Shown here: in pieces, positions 17,669-40,530 of the stretch
Position numbering within the stretch: position 1 is the stretch's first letter
Layout: every line of letters starts with the position of its first letter
From: Zetaproteobacteria bacterium
GTDB taxonomy: Bacteria > Pseudomonadota > Zetaproteobacteria > Mariprofundales > Mariprofundaceae
Reading direction: 5' to 3'
NCBI GenBank assembly: GCA_002746295.2
Contig: NVWS02000034.1
Coordinates: 1-46,759, forward strand
Length of the DNA stretch: 46,759 nt
Notes under the pieces: model-generated
What the model was told of the DNA's origin: nothing
Databases searched by the model: none
Seen by the model: the letters and a program-made list of their open reading frames with translations, nothing else
Made by a program: the position numbers and the translations under genes

Positions 17669-17792
17669 TATAGATTTTCAAGTATGAATACTACATCGTC
17701 ACCCTCGAATGCTTGTATCGAGGGTCTTTTGCACTATAGATTCCCGATAAAAGATTTCGGGAATGACGGTGGTTTAATACTTGAATGACTTG
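17669..17792 (+). repeat. hairpin element, copy A (MITE with inverted REP pair)
   Basis: The left end is TATAGATTTTCAAGTAT at 17669-17685; the right end TTTAATACTTGAATGACT is its imperfect inverse. Two hairpins lie inside: ACCCTCGA/TCGAGGGT at 17701-17725 and ATTCCCGA/TCGGGAAT at 17740-17764, framed by CGTC and GACG. It fills the gap between rnj and the NusG-II gene and may also act as an RNA hairpin that stops or protects the rnj message. Confidence 0.85.
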
Positions 17793-17820
17793 TATCTTTC
17801 AAACGCTGAAAGGTACTTGG

Positions 17821-20581: not shown

Positions 20582-20627
20582 CTATGAAATTCGCAGCACA
20601 GGACTGACTGAATTTAGCTAGACCAAC

Positions 20628-23256: not shown

Positions 23257-23313
23257 TTCCCCTCCGTTTATATCTGCAAAAATATTGTTCAATAACTGAT
23301 GTTACGCACACAA

Positions 23314-23411: not shown

Positions 23412-23566
23412 AACCTATAGTCATTCAAGTATTAAACCACCGTCATTCCCGAAATATTTTATCGGGTATCTACCATAGCCCCGACACAAGCATTCAGGGG
23501 TGACGACGGAGCCTGACAATTCGGATGATGAACGAAAACTTAGTTCCATACTTAAAAACGACTATA
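23412..23566 (-). repeat. hairpin element, copy B, ending in the polA stop codon
   Basis: The left end is TATAGTCATTCAAGTATTAA; the right end, read on the minus strand from 23566, is TATAGTCGTTTTTAAGTAT. Inside, ATTCCCGA/TCGGGTAT and CCCCGA-type/TCAGGGG hairpins appear in the opposite order to copy A, so it lies inverted. The last five bases (TATAG on the minus strand) contain the TAG that terminates polA. Confidence 0.85.
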
Positions 23567-29662: not shown

Positions 29663-29794
29663 TGGTAAGCCGTTTAGGTAGAAAGTACCTCGTCATCCTC
29701 GCGTGCTTTTGTCGAGGATCTCTTTAAAGTATAGATTCCCGATACAAGATTTCGGGAATGACGATAAGAGTAAATTAATACTTAAATTACTATA
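29663..29794 (+). repeat. hairpin element, copy C
   Basis: The right end TTAATACTTAAATTACTATA is clear; the left end (GGTAAGCCGTTTAGGTAG) is decayed. The hairpins ATCCTCG/CGAGGAT and ATTCCCGA/TCGGGAAT sit in the same order as copy A. It lies between the VOC/PCP_red gene and trmB, and the open frame in front of trmB runs through its end. Confidence 0.8.
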
Positions 29795-30610: not shown

Positions 30611-30768
30611 TATAGTGCTTTAAGTATGAAACTACCGTTTCAATCATCATCCCCCAGTACTTGTGTCGGGGGTCTATAGGTAGACTCCCGAGAAAAGATT
30701 TCGGCAATGACGAACCAAAGGGTAAATTTATACGAATCATGGCTATATTGAAAAAACTTTGAAAAAAA
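30611..30768 (+). repeat. hairpin element, copy D (unoccupied counterpart of copy G)
   Basis: Starts TATAGTGCTTTAAGTATGAA. The first hairpin is CCCCCAG.../GTGTCGGGGG; the second CTCCCGA/TCGGCAA has mismatches. A conserved ATTTATACGAATCATG-GCTATA follows, then an A-rich tail shared with copy G. The right terminal repeat is missing, so the outer boundary is approximate. Confidence 0.8.
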
Positions 30769-30784
30769 TGCCAATTCATTCGGG

Positions 30785-32905: not shown

Positions 32906-33035
32906 TATAGTGGTTTAAGTATTGATTGAACCTTATCGTCATTCCCGATTTTTTTATCGGGAACCTATGGCTTAAAGAGACCCTCGACAAAAGCACACGA
33001 GGATGACGAGCTACTTTCATACTTAAACGACTATA
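32906..33035 (-). repeat. hairpin element, copy E
   Basis: Bounded by TATAGTGGTTTAAGTATTGA on the left and ATACTTAAACGACTATA on the right. Hairpins ATTCCCGA/TCGGGAA and ACCCTCG/CGAGGAT are in the same order as copy B. A second TATAGTG start at 32894 suggests a partial older end. It separates the two Roadblock-like genes. Confidence 0.85.
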
Positions 33036-33499: not shown

Positions 33500-33625
33500 T
33501 CATCGTTTAAGTATCAAGTTACCCCATCATGCTCGAAATCTTGTATGAGGCATCTAGTCATAGACCCCTAACACAAGCATTCTGGGCTAACGACGGGGGG
33601 TGACGATTCGGATGATATTTTAAGA
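33500..33625 (-). repeat. hairpin element, copy F (decayed)
   Basis: Left CATCGTTTAAGTATCAAG matches the terminal repeat. The central ACACAAGCATTCTGGG and TGACGATTCGGATGAT match copy B, but the stems are broken and the right end is lost. It is an old copy between the Roadblock and cytochrome genes. Confidence 0.6.
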
Positions 33626-34143: not shown

Positions 34144-35600
<1,457 letters not shown>

Positions 35601-35609
35601 CAGCCCATT

Positions 35610-35665
35610 GAGAGCCTCTCGTTCCCATGCTCTGCGTGGGATTCTGTTTCCAAAATTTGGCTCTC
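35610..35665. repeat. REP-like palindrome between purB and hrpA
   Basis: An inner stem TCCCATGC/GCGTGGGA (35623-35641) is enclosed by GAGAGCC (35610-35616) and GGCTCTC (35659-35665). The motif CGTTCCCATGCTCTGCGTGG looks like a REP type found in many proteobacteria and is unrelated to the other hairpin family here. It may end purB transcripts. Confidence 0.6.
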
Positions 35666-35702
35666 GCTGGTGGGTTTTTCATACCGATAGGCTGAACCCT
35701 TG

Positions 35703-40200: not shown

Positions 40201-40530
40201 TATAGTGCTTTAAGTATGGAACTAGCCTTTCGTTCATCAACCGAATCGTCACCCCCGAGTGCTTGTGTCGGGGGTCTATAGTGATTCAAGTATTAAATCA
40301 CCGTCATTCCAGAGTGCTTGTGTCTGGAATCTATTGATAGACCCTCGACACAAGCATTCGAGGGTGACGAAAACATAATACCTATTTAATACTTAAACGA
40401 CTATATAGATAGATTCCCGATAAAAGATTTCGGGAATGACGAACTAAGAGGTAGATTTATACGAATCATGACTATATTTAAAAATCTTTGAAAAAGAAAA
40501 AAATACCATTTTAATACTTAAACGACTATA
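40201..40530 (+). repeat. hairpin element, copy G, containing a second element
   Basis: The outer copy starts TATAGTGCTTTAAGTATGG directly after the moaD stop and ends ATACTTAAACGACTATA at 40530. Its hairpins are ACCCCCGA/TCGGGGGT and ATTCCCGA/TCGGGAAT, with an ATTTATACGAATCATG block after them, as in copy D. It is split by a second complete element at about 40277-40405. The last A of the element is the first base of a possible moaE ATG. Confidence 0.9.
40277..40405 (+). repeat. hairpin element, inner copy inserted in copy G
   Basis: TATAGTGATTCAAGTATTAA on the left, TTTAATACTTAAACGACTATA-type end on the right. The core is nearly symmetric: CGTCA, hairpin ATTCCAGA/TCTGGAAT, central CTATTGATAG, hairpin ACCCTCGA/TCGAGGGT, TGACG. 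Removing it with one TA restores the copy D sequence, so it is a TA-target insertion. Confidence 0.9.

Follow-up and report, generated by a model that had tools for sequence, protein, structure and literature searches.

Inverted CGTC REP pairs framed by IS630-type terminal repeats form a mobile-element family in Mariprofundaceae

Introduction

Several intergenic sequences in the 46,759-nt stretch of DNA analyzed here (the window) share a pair of inverted hairpins enclosed between repeated ends. This layout recalls REP pairs as well as TA-flanked MITEs, and it raises the question of which part of the unit moves and which enzyme moves it. In their 2013 survey, Di Nocera et al. described CGTC REPs as apparently having no transposase dedicated to them, and did not decide between RAYTs and other enzymes as their movers (PMC3733652). 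We addressed this question with the window's own genome (G000, 2.09 Mb in 138 contigs), a sister species of the same genus (G005), a Mariprofundus of another genus (G064) and further relatives. Genome counts given below derive from pattern searches and fetched stretches.

Results

Anatomy of the unit

The full unit, of ~129–200 bp, consists of a 17-bp terminal inverted repeat (TIR, TATAGTSRTTYAAGTAT), an arm, a CGTC REP, a spacer, an inverted CGTC REP, a second arm and the reverse complement of the TIR; it is short, non-coding and multicopy, as is usual for an IS630-type MITE. Arms are mostly 8–72 nt long and fall in discrete length classes, the spacer between paired REPs is short (usually 4 nt), and an 8-nt arm preceding CGTCAT recurs across genera. 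Complete copies cluster at 129–140 bp, and their mean length is 145 bp for G000 and 138 bp for G005. Each REP of G000 is made up of CGTC, an 8-bp stem, a 9-nt loop and CTA, and most pairs consist of two unlike REPs, loop-type X being joined with loop-type Y in 61 of 70 pairs. The tag, the stem of 8–9 bp starting with A-T and the inverted pairs are those of the CGTC superfamily; G000 departs from the 4–5-nt loop and CCA tail of that superfamily by its 9-nt loop and CTA, and CCA tails occur in G064. Exceptions in CGTC REP loop length are reported in the survey (PMC3733652). Many G064 units are shorter (85–94 bp), with one collapsed hairpin each, and it is the longer ones that hold the REPs with CCA tails.

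The association between REPs and TIRs is frequent. An end motif lies within 110 nt on the CGTC side of 133 of the 183 sampled REPs, compared to 6 of 183 with shuffled flanks. Conversely, 35 of the 183 have no recognisable TIR and 20 are accompanied by the end of another MITE, which speaks against this MITE as sole vehicle and indicates that REPs spread in other ways too. Two variants of the unit were also observed. A perfect 32-bp TIR-TIR palindrome devoid of a REP core (G010 L082:1501–1532, L395) represents the smallest MITE form, and at G061 L084:1501–1674 the same TIRs surround a different hairpin-rich core without CGTC REPs, so these ends can carry other cargo.

Copies in the window

Related sequences are present at all seven intergenic sites named in the first-pass annotation (17669, 23412, 29663, 30611, 32906, 33500 and 40201/40277), but its statement that each copy has ends proved slightly too strong: it holds for four elements with both ends and not for those at 17669, 29663, 30611 and 33500. 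Both TIRs are well kept at 23416–23566 (left REP 23441–23472, +), 32906–33035 (REPs 32937–32967, +, and 32977–33008, −), 40201–40530 and 40277–40405; no strand is assigned to the copies themselves. The last two form a nest, in which the outer element 40201–40530 (REPs 40247–40278 and 40410–40441) is split by an inner 129-bp MITE at 40277–40405 (REPs 40302–40333 and 40338–40369) that sits in the spacer between the two outer REPs. The right end is partly degenerate (...GACTTGTA) in the copy at 17669–17794 (REPs 17697–17728, +, and 17737–17768, −), and so is the left end of the copy at 29668–29794 (REPs 29691–29722, +, and 29732–29763, −). The right TIR is missing from the copy at 30611–30770 (REPs 30645–30676, +, and 30681–30712, −) and from the degenerate copy at 33500–33616, whose right border is approximate (REPs 33525–33556, +, and 33561–33592, −).

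RNA folding of four window copies gave z-scores of −2.4 to −7.9, and an Rfam scan of the window returned zero family matches. Another type of palindromic repeat, CGTTCCCATGCTCTGCGTGGGA, is contained in ~113 bp at 35588–35701, downstream of a purB-like gene and missing from G005.

Empty sites delimit the mobile piece

Comparison of orthologous sites revealed a clean empty site in each of the two genomes G000 and G005, both with a TA target duplication. The whole block 40201–40530 is missing in G005, which reads TGA-TA-TGGG with a single TA (TGATATGGG), where G000 reads TGA-TA-[TAGTGC...GACTA]-TA-TGGG. Reciprocally, window positions 20619–20620 are an empty TA in G000 (GGTC-TA-GCTA; no strand assigned), at which G005 has GATC-TA-[TAGT...ACTA]-TA-GATA; the C before the TA excludes a longer duplication there. 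The joined-flank screen picked up REP and MITE sequence as such too; of its matches we relied only on the one at 20619, which is full-length and lies in unique flanks, and a further candidate (L035) was left out as its junction was too gapped. What is polymorphic between genomes is thus the element in its full extent from TIR to TIR. G007 and G010 lack the copies at 29663 and 32906 and show none at 33500; the first is also missing at the orthologous site in G005, and the other two are common to G000 and G005. The 129-bp unit inserted in G005 at the site corresponding to 20619–20620 is found identical over its 129 bp at 11 G005 sites with different flanks, so its amplification was recent.

Copy number and distribution

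The family is present genome-wide in G000 and recurs patchily within Mariprofundaceae. In G000 we counted 81 matches to the REP half-pattern (0 to its reversed control), the TIR pattern with one mismatch allowed has 216 ends (16 for the reversed-pattern control), and the exact TIR including the leading T has 126 (control 0); these counts exclude chance. The wider search for copies proposed in the first-pass annotation was thus productive in the genome itself as well as in relatives. Exact ends occur in 9 of the 120 genomes of the relatives search, G000 included, all from the same family: 126 in G000, 120 in G005, 78 in G064, 14 in G010 and 2–5 in five others, with 0 in the controls. A scan of 84,980 species for the end followed by 8 nt and CGTCAT yielded 79 stretches, in records titled Mariprofundus or Mariprofundaceae with the sole exception of one titled uncultured proteobacterium. 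On this basis the host is taken as a member of the Mariprofundaceae (Zetaproteobacteria), a group of iron-oxidising marine bacteria.

IS630-family elements with matching ends

We found IS630-type elements with similar ends in relatives, as the first-pass annotation had suggested looking for. DDE_3/IS630 genes within the Mariprofundaceae lie in elements of 928–951 bp whose ends begin with TATAGT. In five such IS630-family elements the ends match the MITE TIR at 12–16 of 17 positions, with no identical pair found. The element at G011:C157 holds an open frame of 252 aa, and its ends agree with the long MITE arm at 25–26 of 32 positions. The G005 transposase is assigned to NCBIfam IS630 with 134.8 bits (cut-off 100). 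The assembled G000 contains only two right ends of such elements, both at contig edges and matching at 13 of 17 positions; an intact IS630 element with exactly the MITE ends was not found in assembled G000 or G064. In G005, a MITE located directly in an IS630 fragment beside a broken ISAs1-like element constitutes a mobile-element stack (G005:C22:41700–42860, L112).

Taken with the empty sites, these matches make it very probable that the family is a non-autonomous IS630-type MITE whose cargo is an inverted CGTC REP pair and which is moved by an IS630-family DDE transposase. Judging from the similarity of the ends, an IS630-type transposase would act in trans on these units: it would recognize the ends TATAGTSRTTYAAGTAT, the first TA of which would be the target, move the entire TIR-to-TIR unit, insert it at a TA and duplicate that TA, the REP pair riding along as a passenger. 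Tolerance of the hairpins at gene ends, or some use for them there, may account for their retention.

RAYT-like genes

RAYT-like gene matches occur in nine of ten genomes, with one clear RAYT-like gene in G000 (on C34). We examined 20 RAYT-like loci from nine genomes and saw no CGTC hairpin within 500 bp of any of them, in agreement with the missing dedicated transposase of the survey (PMC3733652), and the hairpins at the genes on C34 and G005:C54 are of the GTAG type. A RAYT, which had been put forward as a possible mover of the CGTC REPs, was consequently rejected on the basis of these gene flanks. A Y1 gene on C56 was likewise set aside as a RAYT candidate since its sequence reads as IS200-like. 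The RAYT-like gene of C34 is flanked by the GTAGGGGCAATCCCTTGTGGTTGCCC hairpin in a region of pilin- and secretion-like genes (G000:C34:2110–2511; L069, L370), and a CGTC REP pair lies ~0.6 kb from it.

We accordingly do not read the family as a RAYT-moved REPIN, and the proposal that it combines REP-pair and TA-flanked MITE layouts stands with regard to the combined layout and the matching IS630 ends while its link to RAYTs is not supported. It could still be argued that the REP pair is itself mobile by means of a Y1 transposase of the RAYT type, with palindromic TIR elements as its preferred insertion sites, given that REP pairs occur without these TIRs and inside a second MITE type (see below), and that Anabaena variabilis and Halothiobacillus neapolitanus are reported to have REP dimers within palindromes (PMC3733652). 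We consider this improbable: the clean empty sites end at the TIR and TA and not at the REPs, the 20 RAYT-like loci are without CGTC hairpins within 500 bp, and four bare REP pairs tested at orthologous sites gave no clean insertion. Even harder to credit is an origin of the copies by decay of a larger IS, in place of a propagating miniature element. The loss of one end in the window copies at 30611 and 33500 and the TIR fused to the C-terminus of a transposase at G005:C39 would fit such an origin, but the narrow size class of the complete copies and the clean empty sites do not, and the 11 identical complete copies of G005 with their differing flanks already refute it. Genome-wide copies without covariation or consistent ends, or consisting only of degenerate IS fragments, would have undone the initial description of the family; we found covariation, consistent ends and identical complete copies.

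Among the bare CGTC REP pairs, the one at G000 L024:1501–1600 replaces ~44 bp present in G005, G007 and G010, apparently within a coding gene.

Covariation of the stems

We analyzed 144 REPs picked by tag, loop and tail only, and compared pair counts with 1000 partner shuffles. Overall, 96% of stem positions are paired. Position 1 is A-T in 141 of the 144 REPs, and both bases switch at several other positions, from T-A to C-G at positions 2 and 3 and from C-G to T-A at position 5 (T-A 101, C-G 41 and broken 2 at position 2; C-G 96 and T-A 41 at position 5). When each of the 44 distinct stem combinations is counted once, pairing holds at 89.5% of positions, compared to 80.0 ± 1.1% with shuffled partners (highest value in the 1000 shuffles, 83.8%), a procedure that leaves relatedness in.

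Covariation of the stems is thereby confirmed, but the selection on hairpins that the first-pass annotation drew from it need not follow, since template switching at imperfect palindromes would also restore pairing. The pattern can be explained by selection for hairpins or, alternatively, by such templated repair. That the pattern arose by such template switching together with the spread of a few stem types is a realistic possibility: the stem types are few and mostly perfect, half-corrected stems occur (for example ATTCCCGA/TCGGGTAT), and units that are mobile passengers need no host function. Selection for terminator-like or mRNA-end hairpins fits these observations equally well.

Nesting and a second carrier

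In an automatic flank test, another REP or REP pair was abutted or split by 9 of the 44 complete G000 copies and by 12 of the 36 in G005. This rate is approximate, as a few of the assignments seem on inspection to be due to chance and the copies had been collected by means of REP and TIR patterns. Clear cases of nesting are the window copy at 40277 and loci L001, L115, L127, L168 and L181. REPs are known as targets of five IS families, IS630 not among them (PMC1525189).

A second MITE type with ends CTGATGTTACGCA frames the same CGTC REP pairs, with 8-bp duplications where these are clear (exact in 6 of 22 cases, and three more with 7 of 7). Its ends number 84 in G000, 50 in G005 and 184 in G010 (controls 0–2); examples are G000 L387, L392, L396, L275 and L022 and G005 L332, and a single end lies at window positions 23296–23308. 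Candidates for its parent were rejected, as a 2.5-kb G010 segment between such ends holds ordinary genes and CTGATGTTACGCA ends are absent from both DDE_Tnp_1 elements that were found. REP pairs without either MITE end also exist. A different mode of REP growth is seen in tandem or clustered arrays of REP halves (for example repeated GGATTCGAGGGTGACG) at G000 L021 from ~820, G005 L327 and G010 L314.

We tentatively propose that CGTC REP pairs, having no transposase of their own, may owe most of their spread to MITEs moved by DDE transposases, in which they ride as cargo. In these genomes the same pairs lie in two or more MITE systems that differ in their ends and target duplications (TA for the IS630 type, 8 bp for the other), and the IS630-type MITE would also insert in REP-pair spacers, giving nested mosaics that feed the spread.

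Discussion

IS630-type MITEs such as RUP, MITEs with a REP such as QMITE2, and REP dimers in palindromes are each already known (PMC2229807, PMC5896051, PMC3733652), while our search of open-access literature turned up no case that combines them with an identified type of transposon for CGTC REPs. For CGTC REPs, a carrier can be named in this lineage, along with empty sites and candidate enzymes, which makes the question of the mover directly testable. The IS630-like ends, the two-base target duplication and the empty sites suggest how CGTC repeats can spread, and from the second MITE type it seems that transposons of more than one kind can carry REP pairs.

Comparison with known systems

The Correia elements of Neisseria have ends that may be similar to those of our MITE (TATAG...). 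Correia/NEMIS elements are also alike in their size of ~107–155 bp, TIRs of ~24 bp and TA at the termini (PMC2229807); they differ in that no REP pair is reported as their core. Another parallel is RUP of Streptococcus pneumoniae, a MITE proposed to be mobilized by IS630-Spn1, which is a ~107-bp non-coding element with TIRs like those of IS630-family IS, a TA target and about a hundred copies (PMC2229807). Here, in contrast, the cargo is a CGTC REP pair, and host and sequence are unrelated to those of RUP. QMITE2 of Coxiella burnetii is likewise a MITE containing a REP that serves as an insertion target, but its REP is of the GTAG type, its direct repeats are 7–11 nt long and the inserting element is IS1111 (PMC5896051).

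As in REPINs, two inverted REPs have their tags outside (PMC3116915, PMC2817692), whereas here no cognate RAYT with the same REP at its flanks was found, the moving unit is bounded by TIRs and not by REPs, and a target duplication is present. The CGTC superfamily of the 2013 survey has the same tag, an 8-bp stem starting with A-T, inverted pairs with tags outside, frequent heterodimers and no dedicated transposase (PMC3733652); the family described here differs in being regularly framed by IS630-type TIRs. Within that survey, GTAG-15 dimers of A. variabilis lie inside TATAGGA...TCCTATA and CGTC-1 of H. neapolitanus inside 41-bp palindromes (PMC3733652), that is, a REP dimer in a constant inverted repeat, which in A. 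variabilis also begins with TATAGG. The survey interpreted the palindrome as a target for insertion, whereas here the TA duplication, the empty sites and the matching IS630 ends mark it as transposon ends; the present family also offers an explanation for the REP dimers reported inside palindromes of other bacteria.
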